Source of the DNA: Bacteroidales bacterium
GTDB lineage: Bacteria; Bacteroidota; Bacteroidia; Bacteroidales; UBA3824
Assembly: GCA_017651345.1 (NCBI GenBank)
Contig: JAGCDD010000278.1
Span: forward strand, 1 to 34,146
Direction: 5' to 3'
DNA length: 34,146 bases
Part shown: one piece after another, positions 1,979-29,177 of the stretch
How the letters are laid out: the number at the start of each line of letters is the position of its first letter
How positions within the stretch are numbered: the first letter of the stretch is position 1
Notes under the pieces: generated by a model
Told to the model about the DNA's origin: nothing
What the model saw: only the letters and a program-made list of their open reading frames with translations
Database searches by the model: none
Program-made: the position numbers and the translations under genes

Positions 1979-3082
1979 ATGGAAAAGCCCGAATTCATAA
2001 AACGCGATGGTGTAATTGCCGAACAAAAATATGTGGAATGGCTCACGGACATCAAAAGCCGATACCGCAAAAGCCAAATCAAGGCGGCTGTCAAAGTCAA
2101 CAGCACGCTATTGGAATTTTATTGGACATTGGGACGCGACATTGTTGCTCTGCAAGCCGACAGCAAATGGGGACGAGGATTTTTCAACCAACTGAGCCTT
2201 GATATGAAAACCGAATTCCCCGAAGAAACAGGCTTTTCTGTTACCAACCTAAAATACATAAAACGGTGGTATCAGTTTTATTATGAGGAAGTTATAATTC
2301 GTCAACAAGTCGTTGACGAAATTCGTCAGCAAGTTTCTGACGAAAAAAGCCAACAAGTTGTTGACCTTTTGGAAATGCCCCAAAATTTTGGCTTGGTGCC
2401 GTGGGGACAACATATAATGATTATCACCAAATGCAAAACCGTCAGTGAGGCGTTGTTCTATATCAACAACATTGCCGAAGAAGGATGGAGTAGAAGCCGA
2501 CTTGAACACGAATTGGAATCAAACCTCTATGGGCATCAAGGCTCTGCCATTACCAATTTTTCACGCACTCTGCCGCAGCCGCAAAGCGAACTGGCTCAGG
2601 AGATTTTGAAAGATTCGTACAATTTCGGGTTTCTCGACATCAAAGCCAAACACGACGAAAAAGATTTGCAAGAAGCATTGGAAAAAAACATCACGCGATT
2701 TCTCCTTGAACTCGGCAAAGGATTTGCTTACGTTGGCCGTCAGATGGAACTGCGTATGGACGAGGAAACATCTTTTTTCCCCGACCTGATTTTCTACCAT
2801 ATTCCGCAAAAAAGATACGTAATCATCGAACTCAAAGCAGTGAAGTTCGCTCCCGAATTTGCCGGCAAACTCAATTTCTACGTTACAGCCGCCGACAAAC
2901 TACTCAAAGGCGACGGCGACAATCCGTCGGTGGGTCTGATAATTTGCCGCACTGCAAAAAAAACAATTGTGGAATGGTCGCTGCAAGACATCCAAAAACC
3001 ACTCGGCGTTGCCACCTACCAAATTGAACAAATTGTGGAACGCACAGTCAAAGAATTTACCCTAAAAAAATCTCAAACCTAA
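1979..3082 (+). CDS. DUF1016/YhcG-family PD-(D/E)XK nuclease
   Basis: This 367-residue protein has the two-part layout of the YhcG family. The N-terminal helical DUF1016_N domain (about 17-150) includes the STLLEFYWTLGRDI and GFSVTNLKYIKRWYQFY signatures. The C-terminal nuclease domain (about 205-355) carries FFPDLIFY (Asp269) and VIIELKAVKF (Glu284-x-Lys286) as the PD-ExK catalytic core, followed by GKLNFYV and PSVGLIICR. The family is widespread in defence islands and near restriction genes; the exact substrate is not established. Residues about 107-129 contain three near-copies of an (R/S)QQVVDE unit encoded by a short tandem DNA repeat (2297-2365), which extends the interdomain loop. It is flanked by genes of other function and may be monocistronic. 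The start at 1979 gives the usual family N-terminus. Confidence 0.88.
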   Translation: MEKPEFIKRDGVIAEQKYVEWLTDIKSRYRKSQIKAAVKVNSTLLEFYWTLGRDIVALQADSKWGRGFFNQLSLDMKTEFPEETGFSVTNLKYIKRWYQFYYEEVIIRQQVVDEIRQQVSDEKSQQVVDLLEMPQNFGLVPWGQHIMIITKCKTVSEALFYINNIAEEGWSRSRLEHELESNLYGHQGSAITNFSRTLPQPQSELAQEILKDSYNFGFLDIKAKHDEKDLQEALEKNITRFLLELGKGFAYVGRQMELRMDEETSFFPDLIFYHIPQKRYVIIELKAVKFAPEFAGKLNFYVTAADKLLKGDGDNPSVGLIICRTAKKTIVEWSLQDIQKPLGVATYQIEQIVERTVKEFTLKKSQT

Positions 3083-3091
3083 AAAAAGATT

Positions 3092-3099
3092 TATCTTTG
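3092..3099 (+). promoter_or_regulatory. Probable -7 box for the ADP-ribosylglycohydrolase gene
   Basis: TATCTTTG matches TAnnTTTG and lies 52 bases upstream of the ATG at 3152, right after the stop of the preceding gene. No clear TTTG is seen at the -33 position. Confidence 0.45.
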
Positions 3100-3151
3100 T
3101 AACCATATAAACAACAAATAACATTTCATCAACCAAACACCCTAACCCGCT

Positions 3152-3934
3152 ATGATATTAGGCTCAATAATAGGCGACACAGTAGGCTCGGTCTACGAAT
3201 TTGACAACAACAAGTCGGTGGATTTTCCGCTGTTCGACACGGAATGTGACTTCACCGACGATTCGATACTAACCGTGGCTGTTGCCAAATGGCTCGTTAC
3301 AGATAAGAAACACACTTTGGAAAAATTAGAAGAATGTCTTGTAGATTTTACAAGGCGTTATCCCGACCCGATGGGTTCGTACGGCACAGGATATTGGGCT
3401 TGGTCGCGTTCCAAAAATCGAAAACCCTACAACTCTTGGGGCAACGGCTCGGCAATGAGAGTTTCTGCCGTGGGTTGGGCGTTCGACACTTTGGAAGAAA
3501 CTCTTGAAATAGCCAAACGCTCTGCCGAAATCACACACAACCACCCCGAAGGCATCAAGGGCGCACAGGCAACGGCTGCGGCTATCTACCTTGCTCGCAC
3601 TGGCAAATCAAAACAAGAAATCAAAGATTACATTACCCAGACATTCGGCTACGATTTAACCCGTACTTGCGACGACATCCGCCCAAAATATACGTTCGAC
3701 GGTTCGTGTCAAGGCACTGTACCCGAGGCAATGACGTCGTTTTTCGACAGCAAGGATTTTGAATCTGCCATACGTCTTGGAGTTTCGCTCGGCGGCGACA
3801 CCGACACTCTTGTTTGCATCACCGGCGGCATAGCTGAGGCATTCTACAAAAAAATCCCGCAAGCAATCACCGACAAAATTCTATCGATGATTCCGCAGGA
3901 GTTTAAAGATATACTTGGCGAGTTTAACAAATAA
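3152..3934 (+). CDS. ADP-ribosylglycohydrolase (DraG/ARH-like) family protein
   Basis: This 260-residue protein matches the ADP-ribosylglycohydrolase family over its full length. The N-terminal GSIIGDTVGSVYEF is followed by FTDDSILTVAVA, the metal-binding Thr-Asp-Asp motif. Then come NSWGNGSAMRVSAVGWA, THNHPEGIKGAQATAAAIY and the C-terminal GGDTDTLVCITGGIAEA, whose Asp-Thr-Asp provides the second metal site. Family members remove ADP-ribose from proteins, nucleic acids or small molecules. All metal-binding motifs are intact, so it is probably active. Its own -7 box lies upstream, and a small membrane protein follows 10 bases after the stop, so the two are probably co-transcribed. It converges on a TIR protein whose family consumes NAD, which is suggestive but not proof of a link. 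Confidence 0.92.
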   Translation: MILGSIIGDTVGSVYEFDNNKSVDFPLFDTECDFTDDSILTVAVAKWLVTDKKHTLEKLEECLVDFTRRYPDPMGSYGTGYWAWSRSKNRKPYNSWGNGSAMRVSAVGWAFDTLEETLEIAKRSAEITHNHPEGIKGAQATAAAIYLARTGKSKQEIKDYITQTFGYDLTRTCDDIRPKYTFDGSCQGTVPEAMTSFFDSKDFESAIRLGVSLGGDTDTLVCITGGIAEAFYKKIPQAITDKILSMIPQEFKDILGEFNK

Positions 3935-3944
3935 CATCACAAAT

Positions 3945-4319
3945 ATGAACAAGAAGGTTGACAAACTCATCGATTGCATTATAGCGATTGTTGTAGGCGC
4001 ATTGGTATTAGCAGCAATCTATTTTTCGTCAAAATGGAATTGCGTAGTAGGTTCCATTGTTCTTGGATTTGGATATTATATATATTGCTTAGTAACACAG
4101 ATCTACCCCCATCACAGCGACCCAGCCGGCGACGGAATGGCAGAGGGATTTGCCGCCCTGTTCAACATAGCAAAATCCGTTATTTTTGCAATAACGTTTA
4201 TGCTCTTTATGCTTTTATCCGACAACCCAATGTCGGTGCTAAACGTGTCGATGATTATCTTGATAGTCTTTTGTGTAAAGCGGCTTTTGTTTATGATATT
4301 TGGGATATCGTTTATATAA
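3945..4319 (+). CDS. Small four-helix membrane protein
   Basis: This 124-residue hypothetical protein starts with the ATG at 3945 (MNKKVDKLID). The frame is open a little further upstream, but into the end of the preceding gene. Hydrophobic segments fall at about residues 10-28, 33-53, 70-92 and 98-122, with a polar HHSDPAGDG loop after helix 2. The gene lies 10 bases after the ADP-ribosylglycohydrolase and is probably in its operon. It ends 4 bases before the converging TIR gene. I do not recognise a family. Confidence 0.65.
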   Translation: MNKKVDKLIDCIIAIVVGALVLAAIYFSSKWNCVVGSIVLGFGYYIYCLVTQIYPHHSDPAGDGMAEGFAALFNIAKSVIFAITFMLFMLLSDNPMSVLNVSMIILIVFCVKRLLFMIFGISFI

Positions 4320-4323
4320 AACT

Positions 4324-5499
4324 TTAAAACTCATTCTCTTCCAAAAACTTAATAGCCTCATCGTACTCTTGTTCGGCAGAAGCACTAATAAGTTCGTAAG
4401 CCTTTTTGGTGTTTTCCTTAACGCCATCGCCATAATAATAGCAAGTGCCAAGGTTGAATTGACCAATTGCATCTTCCTGATCTGCCGCCTTTTTGTATAG
4501 TTTTGCAGCCTCTTTGTAATCTTGCTCCACTCCGTCGCCTTCGTAATAGCAATTGCCAAGGGCGTTTAAACCTTCGGGGTCGTCTTGTTCTGCCGATAAA
4601 CGATACCATTTAACAGCCTCTTTCAAACTTTTCTTTACGCCGAAACCATTGTAATAACAGTGCCCTACATAGCATTGAGCGGTGGAATGTTCCTGTTCGG
4701 CAGACTCTTTGAACCAACGGAAAGCCTCATCGTTGTCTACCTTTACGCCATTGCCCATGTAATAGCAATATCCAAGACTATATTGTGCACAAGAGTTGCC
4801 CTGTTCTGCCGAGGCGCGATACCATCTAACTGCCTCTTTGTAGTTTTTGCGGACATCCTCGCCATCAAAATAACAATCTCCAAGAGTGTTTTGGGCGGCG
4901 TGATTGCCCTTGGCGGCTTCTTGTTTCAGTTCTTCAATGTCGTCATATTCATACTCTTCGTAATAATCCTCGTCGTCGTATTCCTCATTGTCGTAGTCAT
5001 CGTCTTCCACTTGTTCGCGGGTGGGCGAATCCACATTTTTCGACGAAGACGGATTGTTGAGTCCGAAATGATTGTAAAACTCATCTTTGAAATATTTTGC
5101 GTATTCTGCCACATATTTCACGGTTTGACACGAACGCAATCCGCGACCTTTGAGCGATGGTGGAAGAATGTCCTCGTTGAATGTTCCGCTAAAAATCACA
5201 GGCGTAATACGGTCTAAACCAACGGTTTCGATAGCGAGACCAATTTCCTCGTAATACCAATCGCGCTTGCCGGGCACTTCGGGACGGTCGAACGCTCCTT
5301 CGGTTACCACAAGTATAAACCGTTCGGTATTTTCCAAGGCCTTGCGAATTTGTTCGTCGAATTTGCCTTCGGTAATTGAGTCTACATCATAAAAAACATT
5401 ATAGTCGCTAAGCAATCCCACAAGGAAACTGCCGCATACAGTGCCGTTATTTGCACGGCGATAACTTATAAAAAAGTCATATTTCTTTTTTGTTGCCAT
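4324..5499 (-). CDS. TIR-domain protein with Sel1-like repeats
   Basis: This is a 391-residue two-domain protein. The N-terminal TIR domain (about 4-145) has the opening YDFFISYRR, a box-2-like DVDSITEG (38-45), and WYYEEIGLAIE (81-91), where Glu84 or Glu85 sits at the position of the catalytic glutamate of NAD-cleaving TIRs. A strongly acidic Asp/Glu/Tyr linker (about 160-195) follows. The C-terminal half holds five Sel1-like repeats of 36 residues, with units such as AQYSLGYCYYMGNGV and EAVRWYRASAEQ. Sel1/TPR-type repeats commonly mediate protein binding, so a sensor-effector arrangement is likely: repeats sense, TIR degrades NAD. Many bacterial TIR proteins act in abortive anti-phage defence; for this one it is inference. 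It is monocistronic, with its own TATATTTG box at 5518-5525. Confidence 0.9.
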   Translation of the reverse strand: MATKKKYDFFISYRRANNGTVCGSFLVGLLSDYNVFYDVDSITEGKFDEQIRKALENTERFILVVTEGAFDRPEVPGKRDWYYEEIGLAIETVGLDRITPVIFSGTFNEDILPPSLKGRGLRSCQTVKYVAEYAKYFKDEFYNHFGLNNPSSSKNVDSPTREQVEDDDYDNEEYDDEDYYEEYEYDDIEELKQEAAKGNHAAQNTLGDCYFDGEDVRKNYKEAVRWYRASAEQGNSCAQYSLGYCYYMGNGVKVDNDEAFRWFKESAEQEHSTAQCYVGHCYYNGFGVKKSLKEAVKWYRLSAEQDDPEGLNALGNCYYEGDGVEQDYKEAAKLYKKAADQEDAIGQFNLGTCYYYGDGVKENTKKAYELISASAEQEYDEAIKFLEENEF

Positions 5500-5517
5500 T
5501 ATTCAATTTTGTTTTGG

Positions 5518-5525
5518 CAAATATA
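5518..5525 (-). promoter_or_regulatory. -7 box for the TIR-Sel1 gene
   Basis: On the minus strand this reads TATATTTG, a perfect TAnnTTTG match, 18 bases upstream of the ATG ending at 5499. Confidence 0.5.
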
Positions 5526-5593
5526 GTCAATAATTTTAAAATCTTATTCGATTGAGGAGTTTTTTTTATTGGCTATATGTGTAATAAATTTTT

Positions 5594-5626
5594 GGCTATA
5601 ACTCGATTTTTTTCGGGGTTATAGCC
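5594..5626. other. Hairpin in the 325-base gap between the TIR and RhuM-Fic genes
   Basis: GGCTATAAC (5594-5602) pairs with GTTATAGCC (5618-5626) around a T-rich loop. On the plus strand it is followed by CTTTTT; on the minus strand by an A-rich run, so it is a weak terminator candidate for the RhuM-Fic gene and could equally be regulatory. A partial direct copy (GGCTATA) lies about 25 bases to the left. The rest of 5500-5824 holds only the TIR promoter and AT-rich sequence with no convincing gene. Confidence 0.4.
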
Positions 5627-5824
5627 TAACTTTTTGAAGTGAACAAATCTGAAATTTCGATACAACTATTTGATATACTACTATTTGCATTTAATTTTAA
5701 TCCCCAAGGCGTTACAAAAGTGATGTGCAAAGCGGAGGTGGTTTTTGTAATATGCAAAAATGGATTTTATCAACTGCCAACATTGAATATGCTTTTTGTT
5801 CCAAAGATGTATGAAGAGCGGTGA

Positions 5825-6823
5825 TTAATTATCCTGATTTATAAGGTTAACAACAACCTTTACCATTGTATCTTTCTCCTCGGTACGGCTTTCAGCAATC
5901 ATTAGTGTGAGGGCAACAAGGGTGTTGTCGGCAATTCGCTTGGAACCATCGGAATTGTAAAGTAAGTGGTTGTTATCCATAAACCACAGGAAAAGCGTTG
6001 CGGCAATACGTTTGTTGCCATCGCTAAAAGAATGGTTTTTGGTAACAAGATAGAGCAACATTGCCGCTTTTTCCTCCACCGAGGGATAAAGTTCCACGCC
6101 GCCAAATGTTTGATAAATCTGACCGATGGAACTTTTGAACGACTCGTCTTTTTCGTTTCCGAACAAGGCACTTCCACCAAATTTTGACTTCAATGATAGT
6201 ATTGCCGCCATTGCATTTTCGTAGGTGGCGTGGAATTTCTCCGTTTTAGTTGTTTCCTTGATGCTAAGACGCTCGTAGTCGTAATCGTCCAATGTGTCGA
6301 GGGCATAATTATAGTTGGTAACAACGTTGATAAGGGCGGTAGCATCATCAGAAGTTAGTTGCTCTTGTGCCTTTACCGTGCGACCCAATACGTTCACAAG
6401 TTTTTTGAGGTCGTCAAATTTCTGTTGGGATATTTTGGTGTTTACTGCGTAACCTTTTATGAGATAATCTTTTAAGATTTTGTTAGCCCAAATACGAAAC
6501 TGAGTACCGCGCTTGCTCTTTACACGGTAGCCAACGGAGATTATTACGTCGAGGTTGTAAAGTATAGTTTCCTGAATTTGAGTTTGATCTTTAATATAAC
6601 CATGTGGAGTGGTATGTGCAAATTTTGCACATACCACTTTTTCGTCAAGTTCACATTCTGAAAAAATGTTTTTTATGTGTCGTCCGATTACTGTTCGGTC
6701 TTTCTGAAACAGTTCTGCCATCTGTTGTTGTGACAGCCATACCGTTTCGTTTTCCATACGGACATCAATTTGCATTTGTCCGTCGTCGGTTTGGTAAATC
6801 AGTATTTTGTCGTTGAGTGTCAT
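5825..6823 (-). CDS. RhuM-family protein with C-terminal Fic/Doc domain
   Basis: This protein has 332 residues from the ATG at 6823. A TTG ten codons further upstream lies inside the apparent -7 promoter box, so it is rejected as the start. The N-terminal two-thirds is the RhuM (virulence-associated) domain, with VWLSQQQMAELFQKDR, an HTH-like GRHIKNIF segment and ILYNLDVIISVGYRVKS. The C-terminal domain carries HSFSDGNKRIAA (about 264-275), which fits the Fic/Doc motif HxFx(D/E)xNKR. Fic enzymes transfer AMP or, in Doc, phosphate to proteins; Doc inactivates EF-Tu. RhuM-Fic fusions are common in Bacteroidetes accessory regions, but their target is unknown. I see no inhibitory (S/T)xxxE(G/N) helix with certainty. 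The gene lies downstream of the five-gene cassette on the same strand, behind its own promoter and an inverted repeat. Confidence 0.88.
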   Translation of the reverse strand: MTLNDKILIYQTDDGQMQIDVRMENETVWLSQQQMAELFQKDRTVIGRHIKNIFSECELDEKVVCAKFAHTTPHGYIKDQTQIQETILYNLDVIISVGYRVKSKRGTQFRIWANKILKDYLIKGYAVNTKISQQKFDDLKKLVNVLGRTVKAQEQLTSDDATALINVVTNYNYALDTLDDYDYERLSIKETTKTEKFHATYENAMAAILSLKSKFGGSALFGNEKDESFKSSIGQIYQTFGGVELYPSVEEKAAMLLYLVTKNHSFSDGNKRIAATLFLWFMDNNHLLYNSDGSKRIADNTLVALTLMIAESRTEEKDTMVKVVVNLINQDN

Positions 6824-6850
6824 ACTTGTGAGTTGTAATAATACTTTTGG

Positions 6851-6858
6851 CAAATATA
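6851..6858 (-). promoter_or_regulatory. -7 box for the RhuM-Fic gene
   Basis: On the minus strand this reads TATATTTG, 27 bases before the ATG at 6823. Its presence is the reason for choosing the internal ATG over the upstream TTG at 6853. Confidence 0.5.
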
Positions 6859-14787: not shown

Positions 14788-15168
14788 ATGAAGAGCATTG
14801 TAAGAACAATACCGCCAATAACCCGTTCGCGTGCAGACAGAGATGCCCGAAAACACTTCCTGATTGAGAAATTGAAGGAAGAAAATCGTTTTTGGAGTTA
14901 TGCGCCCGGATTTGCCGACAGCGATGTGCCCGATGATATTATCATCGAGAAAACGCTTGTTTACTTAGATTTAGATGAAATCCGTATGTTGTTTGAACTT
15001 TATGGCAAACAGAAGGTTAAACATGTTTGGCTCGAACGACTTGTTCCCCAAGGTGATTATCTGTATAGTCTCAATCGATTTTTTGCGTGGTTTTACTTTC
15101 GGGTAAAAAAGCCCGATATGTATGTTAAGAGTATGGAAACGAGGATATTGAATAGGAGGCTGAAATGA
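14788..15168 (+). CDS. Probable AbiEi-type antitoxin (DUF6922-like)
   Basis: This is a 126-residue basic protein. The central part has the short-helix pattern VPDDIIIEKTLVYLDLDEIRMLFELYGKQKVKHVWLERLV, followed by a LNRFFAWFYF stretch. Its stop overlaps the ATG of the nucleotidyltransferase gene by 4 bases (ATGA at 15165-15168), the usual arrangement of antitoxin then toxin in AbiE-type loci. The product resembles the DUF6922 proteins that sit upstream of AbiEii toxins in Bacteroidetes. The AbiEi antitoxin acts as repressor and blocks toxicity in characterised systems; here that is inferred from position and size. Confidence 0.75.
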   Translation: MKSIVRTIPPITRSRADRDARKHFLIEKLKEENRFWSYAPGFADSDVPDDIIIEKTLVYLDLDEIRMLFELYGKQKVKHVWLERLVPQGDYLYSLNRFFAWFYFRVKKPDMYVKSMETRILNRRLK

Positions 15169-15812
15169 AAGGATTGTCGGATAAAACATTGAGGATTTTT
15201 GAGGCTGTTTCTAAAACAGAATGTATCAAGCCATACGTTTTGGTAGGCGGAACGGCTCTTAACTTGCAAATTGGTGCAAGAGAAAGCGAGGATTTGGATT
15301 TTATGCGTTGGAAAAAACGTCCCGATGAACGTCTTGAAGTGGATTGGCCTTCAATTAAAAAAGAGTTTTCTACATTTGCCGAGGTTCAAAATATTGATAT
15401 TCTTGACATTGACCATATTGAGTTTTTGGTAGACGGTGTAAAATTTTCGTTTTATGCCGCCGATAAGTATGCACCCGAAATTCAACCTATTACCTTTTGT
15501 CACAATTTGAAAGTGGCTGATATTAACGCTATTGGAGCAATGAAAATGGAGGTTATGCTACGTCGCAGCAATTTTCGCGATTATTACGACCTTTATGCTA
15601 TTTTGCAAACGGGTGTTGATATTAAAACTCTAATTGATAATGCGTTAAGATATTCACGGCATCGTCTTAAAACCAAACATCTTATATCTATGCTCACCAA
15701 TGGAAATCGCTTTCATGTAGAACATAACTTTCCGCAGTTAAATCCGGTTTATGATGTTACCGCCGCGGAAATTGAGGATTTTATGAAGGGGGTTTTGGAA
15801 GGGAAGGTATAA
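15165..15812 (+). CDS. AbiEii/AbiGii-family nucleotidyltransferase toxin
   Basis: This 215-residue protein has the family core: YVLVGGTALNLQIGARES (24-41) followed by EDLDFM (42-47), giving the G-G-T and Asp-x-Asp metal motifs of the nucleotidyltransferase fold. Then come FLVDGVKFSFYA, LKVADINAIGAMKMEVMLRR and FRDYYDLYAI, matching the conserved AbiEii Lys and FRDxxDL segments. In characterised family members the enzyme adds nucleotides to tRNA 3' ends and stops growth. It is shorter than some AbiEii proteins but has all core motifs. It is translationally coupled to the upstream antitoxin-like gene. Confidence 0.9.
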   Translation: MKGLSDKTLRIFEAVSKTECIKPYVLVGGTALNLQIGARESEDLDFMRWKKRPDERLEVDWPSIKKEFSTFAEVQNIDILDIDHIEFLVDGVKFSFYAADKYAPEIQPITFCHNLKVADINAIGAMKMEVMLRRSNFRDYYDLYAILQTGVDIKTLIDNALRYSRHRLKTKHLISMLTNGNRFHVEHNFPQLNPVYDVTAAEIEDFMKGVLEGKV

Positions 15813-20034: not shown

Positions 20035-20403
20035 CTAAATCGCAGAACGCCTTATTTCCGAATTTTTTGAAAGCAAGTACAGACAATATTGGTTGAGTGT
20101 AACACCTTCTTTTCGAGAATCTTCCTTTAAAGATTTTAGGAGACTGCGTGGTATGTTGATACCGAACTGATACGAAACAGAGGGATCAATTTTAGGCTCG
20201 ATAATATCTACATTATCTTCTATCGCTGCCAACAGCCATTGTTGCTTAGCATCTTCGGCATTATTGATAGCGTCTGAAATAGTAGAGCCACAAGTAATAC
20301 AGCCCGGAAGTTCAGGATAAGATGCAACATATCCATCCTCTTCCGTGTCAGGAATAATTTCCAACTTGTACGGCATCTTCATATATTCTTCCAATGTTTT
20401 CAT
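20035..20403 (-). CDS. hicB: HicB-family antitoxin
   Basis: This protein has 122 residues from the ATG at 20403; a GTG at 20409 two codons upstream is the alternative start. The N-terminal RNase-H-like HicB domain shows YKLEIIPDTEEDGYVASYPELPGC, then SDAINNAEDAKQQWLLAAIE. The C-terminal part (FGINIPRSLLKSLKEDSRKEGVTLNQYCLYLLS) is a ribbon-helix-helix DNA-binding domain for autoregulation. It follows hicA, with its GTG immediately after the hicA stop, so the pair is coupled. Confidence 0.93.
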   Translation of the reverse strand: MKTLEEYMKMPYKLEIIPDTEEDGYVASYPELPGCITCGSTISDAINNAEDAKQQWLLAAIEDNVDIIEPKIDPSVSYQFGINIPRSLLKSLKEDSRKEGVTLNQYCLYLLSKNSEIRRSAI

Positions 20404-20409
20404 AAACAC

Positions 20410-20664
20410 CTAATTAAGATTTTTACTGTTATTATCACACTCCACAACGGCTTTCACCATTTTTACGTATACTACTTTGATAGGTTCGTGTTTTGGTATG
20501 GTAATAGGACAACACCCCGGTTTACGGAATGTAAAATGACTACTACCGCCTTTCGGTGCAGTCATCTCGTAACCATAGTTTTCCAAAACTTTTTGAAGTT
20601 CTGCAAACCGCATACTCTTGTCAAGAGATTTTATACGACTTATCAGTTTGTCCCATTGTGTCAT
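20410..20664 (-). CDS. hicA: HicA-family mRNA interferase toxin
   Basis: This 84-residue toxin has the HicA double-stranded-RNA-binding-like fold: RFAELQKVLENYGYEMTAPKGGSSHFTFRKPG, with the catalytic His43 inside GSSHFTF, then ITIPKHEPIKVVYVKMVKAV. HicA cleaves mRNA in a translation-independent way and is neutralised by HicB. Toxin-first order is normal for this family. A good promoter lies 30-60 bases upstream. The C-terminal extension (ECDNNSKNLN) is slightly longer than in minimal HicA. Confidence 0.93.
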   Translation of the reverse strand: MTQWDKLISRIKSLDKSMRFAELQKVLENYGYEMTAPKGGSSHFTFRKPGCCPITIPKHEPIKVVYVKMVKAVVECDNNSKNLN

Positions 20665-22417: not shown

Positions 22418-22470
22418 AGAAAAAAGCGATACGACATATACGAAAAAACAAAAAAATACGAAGAATACAA

Positions 22471-22508
22471 AAAAATACCGTCTGAGCATATCCCAAACGG
22501 TATTTTTT
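22471..22508 (-). terminator. Terminator hairpin after the variable-region lipoprotein
   Basis: AAAAATACCGT (22471-22481) and ACGGTATTTTT (22497-22507) form an 11-base stem with a 15-base loop; on the minus strand the stem ends in a T-run. It lies 29 bases after the lipoprotein stop. Some DGR targets carry a hairpin just after the variable region, so this structure could have a second role. Confidence 0.65.
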
Positions 22509-22536: not shown

Positions 22537-23970
22537 CTACAAGGCGCGGACGAGGCGCACAGAGAGACCGAGGCCGCGGCTGTTGGCGTCGTCCGGGCCG
22601 ACGTAGTCCGAGCCGAAGAACAAGTCGCACGCGTCGTCCTCGTCGCGGGCAGACGAAGACCAGTAGTCGCCGTAGTCGCCTACGGCGTAGACATCCGTAC
22701 CGAAGCGGTAACCAGCAGCGGGAAGGAAAACCGCACCGGCGGATTCTAAGGTTGCCCAATCAATTGAACTCCAAATCAAGCCTTCGGTATCATAATCATC
22801 GGGGAGGATGATAAGACCGTTTACACTGTTGACACTTGCCCAATGGCGCAAATCGGAGGCACCGCTGCGCGAAGGGTCGCTACCTTTGCCTAAAAGGTAT
22901 ACCCACTCTTTGTGGCTGAGTGTGTACCACGGGCTGTCCTCACCGAACACCTTGCCCCAATCGGATTTCAGGGCTTCATTTTTACCAGTGCCGTATGTGT
23001 TGGTGCTGTTGGGTGTAGTAGAATTGCTGATGCCATACATAGCCGCGCCTGTCCACGTTGACGACTCGCCAACCCATCCGAAGAGGTCAACAGTACCGTT
23101 GGTTGACACTGTTCCGTCGCCGTTGATTGAGGTGTTGGCGGCGGCTTTGCCGATGATGGTCGTTTGTGAAGGTGCGAAACCCCAAGCCCATTCAGTACCG
23201 TTGTAAGTTGCCTGCAAATTGCCGGGGCTGAAATATACTTTCTTGCCGTCGGCTACGGTGAAGCACTGGCGGGCTACGGTGTAGATTGTGCCGGGGGATA
23301 CTTCGGTGGCGGACTTGCTGATTTCTTTGCCAAGGCCTGTGCTTGTTACATCGGCATCGGAGGGTATGGCAATCCATATTCTGCCGTCCTTCACGGTGTA
23401 GTCAGTTGTGTTGATTTTTATCTCGTGTTCGCAGCAAGGCGACATAGAGATGGCTAAGTAGGCGTTCTGGTCGGTGAGGTCAACTGTTTTGTCTCCGAAT
23501 TTAAATTCACCGATGAAATTGTGGGCACAGGTGGCAAGAAGGTCTGCGAGCGATTTGTCGGATGAGTTTTTGCTGCCTGATACGCTGATTTCGGCGGTGA
23601 GGGAGGCATTTGACGAAGGCTGCTGGGTAAGGCTGCCCGAGAATGTGGCTTTGTCCGATTGAAGGGTGGCTTCGCCGATTGGTGTGTTGCCTTCTTTGAT
23701 TATCATTTTAAGTTGGTTTGCAACATCGTTGTCGGAGAAGGTGATGTTGTACCAGCCTTTCTCGCCCTCGTTGGTGGATTCGGCGTAACCTACTTTTTTT
23801 AGCGAATGCCCGGTATTTACGCGGATTGAGAACGGGATGGTGTTTGTAGCAACGGTGTGCACATCGTCTTTACTGGTTGCGGGTGCGTTGTCGTTGTCGT
23901 CTTTGCTGCACGATGTGGCAAGCATTACTGCCGCAATTATGGGCAGAAATTTAATAAATGCGGTTTTCAT
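22537..23970 (-). CDS. Lipoprotein with C-terminal C-type-lectin-like (FISUMP-type) domain; candidate DGR target
   Basis: This 477-residue protein has a lipoprotein signal peptide ending at LATSC (Cys21), followed by an Asp/Asn-rich linker. Residues about 40-230 are a beta-rich region of no known family. From about 235 (FTVADGKKVYFSPGNLQAT) to the end it matches the Bacteroidales proteins with DLFGW, EWVYLLGKG, NGLIILPDD, GAVFLPAAGYR, YWSSS and a terminal SVRLVRAL. This C-type-lectin-like fold is shared by FISUMP domains and many DGR variable proteins. The last 55 codons (22704-22540) are strikingly GC-rich and dominated by NNC codons, unlike the rest of the gene. A small ORF precedes it by 18 bases and a terminator follows. 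The likely role is surface ligand binding. Confidence 0.82.
   Translation of the reverse strand: MKTAFIKFLPIIAAVMLATSCSKDDNDNAPATSKDDVHTVATNTIPFSIRVNTGHSLKKVGYAESTNEGEKGWYNITFSDNDVANQLKMIIKEGNTPIGEATLQSDKATFSGSLTQQPSSNASLTAEISVSGSKNSSDKSLADLLATCAHNFIGEFKFGDKTVDLTDQNAYLAISMSPCCEHEIKINTTDYTVKDGRIWIAIPSDADVTSTGLGKEISKSATEVSPGTIYTVARQCFTVADGKKVYFSPGNLQATYNGTEWAWGFAPSQTTIIGKAAANTSINGDGTVSTNGTVDLFGWVGESSTWTGAAMYGISNSTTPNSTNTYGTGKNEALKSDWGKVFGEDSPWYTLSHKEWVYLLGKGSDPSRSGASDLRHWASVNSVNGLIILPDDYDTEGLIWSSIDWATLESAGAVFLPAAGYRFGTDVYAVGDYGDYWSSSARDEDDACDLFFGSDYVGPDDANSRGLGLSVRLVRAL
22540..22704 (-). other. Candidate DGR variable region (last 55 codons of the lipoprotein)
   Basis: By hand count about 110 of 165 bases are G or C, and 38 of 55 codons end in C. 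Asp, Tyr, Gly, Ala, Val, Ser, Phe and Arg codons of the form NNC alternate with fixed positions (YWSS, GLSVRLVRAL). That is the pattern left when AAC codons of a template repeat are randomised at A. No template repeat or reverse transcriptase is present in the window. Confidence 0.55.
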
Positions 23971-28595: not shown

Positions 28596-29177
28596 ATGCC
28601 AACTAAAAAACTCTACATAATATCCGGCTGCAATGGTGCAGGTAAAACCACCGCTTCGGTAACAATTTTACCGGAAATATTTGAGTGTAAAGAGTTTGTT
28701 AATGCTGATGAAATTGCAAAAGGTCTTTCGCCATTTAATCCTGAAAGCGTGGCAATTCAGGCAGGCAAACTGATGCTCGAACGCATTAACTATCTCCTTA
28801 CCCAAAACGATAGTTTTGCTATTGAAACCACTTTGTCTACCAAAAGTTATCAAAACCTTGTTTTACAAGCCCACGAAAAGGGTTTTTATGTACAACTTCT
28901 TTATTTTTGGCTTCCATCGCCTGAGTTTGCAACAGCAAGAGTGGCGCAGCGAGTAAAAGAAGGCGGGCACAATATTCCAAAAGACGTGATTTATAGACGA
29001 TATTTTGCAGGGCTCAAAAACCTTTTTGAAATATATATGTCAATTGTTGATTATTGTATGATAATCGACAACGCAGAAAATCCAAGAGCAATTATTGCCG
29101 AAAAAGACGAAGATGGTTTAGTAATTTACAATAAATCAACATTTAACAACATTAGACACTATGAGCAATCAAGATAA
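28596..29177 (+). CDS. Zeta-toxin-family kinase
   Basis: This 193-residue P-loop protein has Walker A GCNGAGKTT (11-19), FVNADEIAKGLSPFNPE (34-50), the FAIETTLSTKSY loop (74-85) and RVKEGGHNIPKDVIYRRYFAGLKNLFEIY (119-147), a signature of the zeta-toxin family. Characterised zeta toxins phosphorylate UDP-N-acetylglucosamine and block cell-wall synthesis; chromosomal relatives such as this are mostly untested. It is somewhat shorter than PezT/zeta from Gram-positives. The stop overlaps the start of a small gene by 17 bases, which suggests a coupled pair, but no epsilon-like antitoxin is recognisable upstream. Confidence 0.88.
   Translation: MPTKKLYIISGCNGAGKTTASVTILPEIFECKEFVNADEIAKGLSPFNPESVAIQAGKLMLERINYLLTQNDSFAIETTLSTKSYQNLVLQAHEKGFYVQLLYFWLPSPEFATARVAQRVKEGGHNIPKDVIYRRYFAGLKNLFEIYMSIVDYCMIIDNAENPRAIIAEKDEDGLVIYNKSTFNNIRHYEQSR

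Follow-up and report, generated by a model that had tools for sequence, protein, structure and literature searches.

The question raised by this locus is whether the unusual 3′ end of one gene was written by a diversity-generating retroelement (DGR) and, if so, where the reverse transcriptase (RT) and template repeat (TR) that wrote it are to be sought. The gene lies on a contig of 34,146 nucleotides, hereafter the window, which is contig 261 of a Bacteroidales draft genome (G000). The features at the locus are as follows.

22537–23970, minus strand: target gene, predicted lipoprotein of 477 residues (ORF, C-terminal domain model, structural matches and homologues)
23908–23970, minus strand: lipoprotein signal peptide up to the lipobox cysteine (LATSC), predicted from the translation
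22540–23265, minus strand: C-type-lectin-type domain, residues 236–477 (AlphaFold2 model and VIA-align matches)
about 22540–22728, minus strand: putative variable region (VR), FLPAAG to SVRLVRAL, rich in NNC codons (composition, alignment to relatives' TRs and relatives' TR/VR borders)
22540–22572, minus strand: conserved VR 3′ end, GLSVRLVRAL (position; TR/VR identity in the relatives G379, G363 and G416 stops there)
22470–22508, minus strand: strong hairpin with a T tract (fold z-score −3.34)

As read from the translation, the N-terminus of the target protein is MKTAFIKFLPIIAAVMLATSCSKDD, with the lipobox ATSC, and the SKDD after the lipobox cysteine resembles the surface-export signal of Bacteroidota, which suggests that the protein may be exported to the cell surface. 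A beta-rich N-terminal region and a C-terminal domain of the C-type-lectin or Lcl_C-like kind are predicted, and the motifs KVYFSPGNLQ, FLPAAGYR, YWSS and GLSVRLVRAL are all present, as the initial annotation of this DNA had stated. The hairpin begins about 29 bases past the stop codon and is most simply read as a transcription terminator. The neighbours differ from those of the closest homologue (G005), with a valyl-tRNA synthetase gene there and an antiporter-like gene at the window locus. Elsewhere the window holds many toxin–antitoxin or defence-like genes (1979–6853, 14788–15812, 20035–20664 and 28596–29177), including those for a YhcG-type nuclease, an ADP-ribosylglycohydrolase, and TIR-Sel1, RhuM-Fic, AbiEii, HicBA-like and zeta-toxin-like proteins.

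It is the codon composition of the gene end that calls for an explanation. Over the last 55 codons the GC content is 0.667 (66.7%) compared to 0.513 in the remaining gene, 38 codons are of the NNC type, and only 3 begin with A compared to 145 of 422 elsewhere in the gene. These counts agree with those first made by hand (about 67% GC, 38 codons ending in C, few starting with A), though the description of the gene as AT-rich was too strong for a sequence that has 51% GC outside this segment. When all ORFs of the window with at least 150 codons were scanned for stretches of 55 codons in which 36 or more end in C and no more than 4 begin with A, 11 overlapping segments out of 10,108 passed, every one at the end of the target gene, and the signature is thus unique to this gene end among the window's long ORFs. 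The arrangement, NNC-type codons within a fixed scaffold at the 3′ end of an ORF, is that of DGR variable proteins. In TR/VR pairs of relatives, identity opens at the FLPAAG codons and stops just past SVRLVR, and therefore the window VR probably spans about 22540–22728; the location first proposed (22540–22704) stands, but the region reaches some eight codons further on its 5′ side. Its conserved end at 22540–22572 lies at the position of the homing-initiation (IMH) site of known DGRs and may have that function.

The predicted fold is also that of DGR variable domains. Though the whole-protein model has low confidence in the N-terminal half, the AlphaFold2 model of the C-terminal domain has a pLDDT of 84.7 and a pTM of 0.86, and its matches by VIA-align are nearly all proteins of the C-type-lectin fold, with Z-scores of 4.6–5.6. 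They include the C-terminal domain of Legionella Lcl (5.6), Treponema TvpA (5.3), Bd2740 (5.2), Mtd variants (4.6–5.1), PvdO (4.9) and TaqVP (4.8), as well as CarF and formylglycine-generating enzymes; three of these, TvpA, Mtd and TaqVP, are DGR variable proteins. Scores near 5 are modest, yet the agreement on one fold is consistent across the modelled domain's matches. Foldseek alone gave no significant match for the target protein in the PDB, and a sequence search of the PDB gave no match. The protein itself falls below Pfam thresholds, while among 38 homologues six match Lcl_C and two match Fib_succ_major, weakly.

Neither a TR nor an RT is in the window, as had been noted at the outset, nor did an Avd-like accessory gene come to notice among the window's ORFs. 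We extended the search for TR and RT to the whole of G000 (4.64 Mb in 483 contigs, with 90.4% completeness and 6.1% contamination). One reverse transcriptase, on contig C223 (L001:1306-2517), was found with Pfam RVT_1, and we rejected it as the driver: it is UG26-like (PADLOC E-value 1e-148) and carries GVPVSAFFAN where DGR RTs carry GNLTSQ. RTs of this kind, with the motif G[AIV]P[IV]SAFFAN, recur in several sister genomes. In the 90% of the genome that is represented, no DGR RT was found with a single DGR RT query or with a profile of four DGR RTs, the sole match to the profile being the same UG26-like protein at a low score, and no template repeat was found by DNA, A-tolerant pattern or TR-peptide searches. 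A short DNA match on contig C304 was discarded as a TR since it has no VR-like reading, and the A-tolerant pattern in relatives picked up only A-rich noise. No TR-like peptide was found in phage and plasmid records, where low-complexity filtering may hide some, and a search of viral contigs gave one locus with a weak 37% match. The initial annotation had proposed a remote target whose AAC-rich template copy would lie beside an RT elsewhere in the genome, and had held that a genome with no DGR-type RT or TR would refute it. That copy was not found in the draft, and the assembly has no DGR RT and no TR as far as its incompleteness allows.

Related cassettes are found in the same genus and order. 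RTs with the GLPIGNLTSQ motif occur in four of 18 genomes of the genus (G009, G010, G011 and G012), with each species represented by one genome. In G009 (contig C32) the TR just before the RT encodes FLPAAGYCFGTDRNNDGSNGYYWSSTPNGESNAYYLNFNSGNANVNNNNRNYGQSVRAVR, which is the domain end of the window gene, with Asn at the sites where variation is expected. Compared to three gene ends in two sister species, G004 and G015, adenines of this TR are changed at 21/44, 20/43 and 21/44 positions and other bases at 10/145, 17/142 and 16/145, while no close VR was found within the G009 genome. The other three genomes have, on contigs G010:C134, G011:C92 and G012:C151 (L096, L093 and L092), an RT in the neighbourhood of sulfatase-modifying-factor-like genes; a gene for a short conserved protein immediately precedes this RT, and the arrangement is a second type of DGR in the genus. 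A search of 393 genomes with the G009 RT as query identified, in the same order, close RTs with complete RT–TR–VR cassettes in G379 (C8) and G363 (C16); these two RTs are 62% and 57% identical to the query, and all three belong to one lineage. The C-type-lectin end encoded by both cassettes is that of the window gene, and in both the changes between TR and cis VR are confined to adenines (16/46 A and 0/119 non-A positions in G379; 20/48 and 0/135 in G363). A further genome, G416, has a TR with a cis VR plus a second VR on another contig, which differs from the TR at 23/56 A and 6/120 non-A positions and, judged from these sequences, is a remote target within one genome. In a horse-gut Bacteroidales MAG (L183), two VRs lie within about 3 kb of each other (4504 and 7660) and differ from the G379 TR at 20–23 of 49 A and 1 of 67 non-A sites each, counted at codon positions 1 and 2; no RT of the G379/G363/G009 lineage was found in that genome.

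We compared the window VR to the G379 TR, a template that belongs to a relative. At codon positions 1 and 2, 31 of 49 A and 7 of 67 non-A positions differ, and all 17 AAC codons of the TR correspond to NNC codons in the window VR, with the third base kept. For a control paralogue on contig C29 of G000, the values are 29/49 and 13/67, with the third base kept at 9 of 17 codons. Against a foreign TR, then, part of the contrast between A and non-A positions is confounded: the adenine sites of the template are exposed sites of the fold, where ordinary homologues vary too. Fisher p-values from such comparisons are descriptive rather than proof, since ordinary paralogues also give small ones. What sets the window VR apart is the full retention of the third base together with the low rate of non-A changes. 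Among 95 homologous ends compared to the G379 TR it ranks near the top, and only three combine a lower non-A rate with comparable third-base retention, all of them much closer to this TR and one being its own cis VR.

These comparisons bear on whether a DGR was involved at all. The gene could be an ordinary paralogue of the Fib_succ_major/Lcl_C type, with a GC-rich end that arose by recombination or drift and loops under ordinary selection, and the paralogues in G000 that share the fold, look unlike DGR targets and vary at the same sites lend this some weight. However, the codons of these other lectin-like paralogues are balanced, the window VR keeps C at every AAC site of a foreign TR and agrees with that TR at almost every scaffold base, and the cassettes of relatives carry out exactly such adenine-limited rewriting, so that we consider this explanation very unlikely. 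The paralogue on G000 contig C147, for instance, shares its lipoprotein N-terminus with the target and has an AT-rich end; it and the paralogue on C265 show little or no jump in composition at the gene end, a jump that is present in most sister-species targets. Another gene in G000 (C67, L007) has two tandem lectin-like ends (LPAAG...YW...SVRAVR) with ordinary codons in both.

With high probability, then, the 3′ end of the target gene is a VR written by a DGR of a Bacteroidales lineage. The proposal of a DGR-written VR in a C-type-lectin lipoprotein, made from the window alone, is well supported by the RT–TR–VR cassettes in the order, the TR–RT cassette in the same genus and the predicted fold. 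In the mechanism proposed, an error-prone RT would copy an AAC-rich template repeat and insert bases at random wherever the template has an adenine. The resulting cDNA would then replace the 3′ end of the target gene; the outcome would be NNC codons at ligand-facing sites of the C-type-lectin domain with scaffold codons left fixed. We infer that the same mechanism wrote the window VR, and the lipoprotein would be displayed on the surface and bind ligands there.

The responsible RT and TR, absent from the assembled contigs, either lie in the missing part of the genome or on an unbinned element, or have been lost, and we regard these two cases as about equally likely. The first would make the gene an active remote target, with its VR rewritten in trans by a cassette that is unassembled or carried by a phage, plasmid or integrative element. 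In codon signature (C3 0.67, A1 0.05) the window VR exceeds all other family members in the genus, the G416 genome pairs a remote VR with an RT and TR on another contig, remote variable proteins are established elsewhere (PMC7517822), and a draft that is 90% complete in 483 contigs could lack a cassette; against this, no assembled contig carries an RT of the DGR type or a TR. We give this possibility close to an even chance.

The second, to which we assign a probability somewhat under one half, is that the writing DGR has since been lost and that the VR, now an ordinary binding domain passed on by inheritance, has yet to lose its codon bias. VR-type ends, defined as ends with a GC content of at least 0.6 in genes of 0.36–0.52, are found over the listed loci in 12 of 18 genus genomes, compared to the four with DGR RTs, and no DGR RT accompanies the VRs of two well-assembled genomes, G004 (98% complete) and G017 (95%). 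In an orthologous pair from G014 and G017 the VR differs at 8 of 192 bases and the remaining gene at 75 of 1206; this VR is frozen rather than hypervariable, with fewer differences for its length than the rest of the gene. On contig 81 of G009 (L285), a target-like gene is followed, some hundreds of bases downstream, by an 88-residue C-terminal piece of an RT that closely resembles the intact DGR RT on C32, evidently a decayed cassette. However, the signature of the window VR is strong and un-ameliorated, MAGs can lose mobile cassettes, and the frozen pair comes from other species. Taken together, the VRs without an RT in G004 and G017, the frozen pair, the RT remnant and the G009 TR without a close VR suggest that a target may persist after its cassette is gone, or exist without one. 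Because the VRs that fit the G009 TR lie in G004 and G015, with no close one in G009, the targets of the genus might even form a resident reservoir while RT–TR cassettes come and go between species, which we think unlikely; if true, one transferred cassette could re-diversify pre-adapted targets in trans.

With this locus, the DGR targets gain a surface lipoprotein from a gut Bacteroidales that has not been cultured, and its genus is a place to ask if trans-acting cassettes still drive targets of this kind or have left them behind. DGR targets can be recognised by their codon signature without an RT, and would be missed by contig-based surveys; the method of one global survey, by its own account, would not detect remote targets (PMC8144416). 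DGR variable proteins with DUF1566 (now Lcl_C) or Fib_succ_major domains, including a predicted lipoprotein with C-terminal Fib_succ_major, have been described from human gut microbiomes (PMC4159848). The target resembles these in its C-terminal VR within a DUF1566/Fib_succ_major-type domain, its lipoprotein N-terminus and the similarity to BACOVA_04982 (4EPS) and TvpA, but differs in having no RT or TR adjacent or in the draft genome and in falling short of the Pfam models. As with the remote variable proteins of cyanobacterial DGRs (PMC7517822), the C-type-lectin gene lies far from any RT and has its VR at the 3′ end, though in those genomes a DGR is present and the TR known, which is not so for the window gene. 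Closer at hand, the TRs of the cassettes in G379, G363 and G009 encode the domain end of the window gene, the first two with a cis target and G009 (C32) with TR and RT in a genome where no close VR was found. Treponema denticola TvpA (2Y3C), Mtd of BPP-1 (1YU0–1YU4) and Thermus TaqVP (5VF4) differ from the target protein in their N-terminal parts and are only about 10% identical to it in sequence, but share the C-type-lectin fold of the variable domain. In all three, NNC codons at the C-terminus encode the variable residues.
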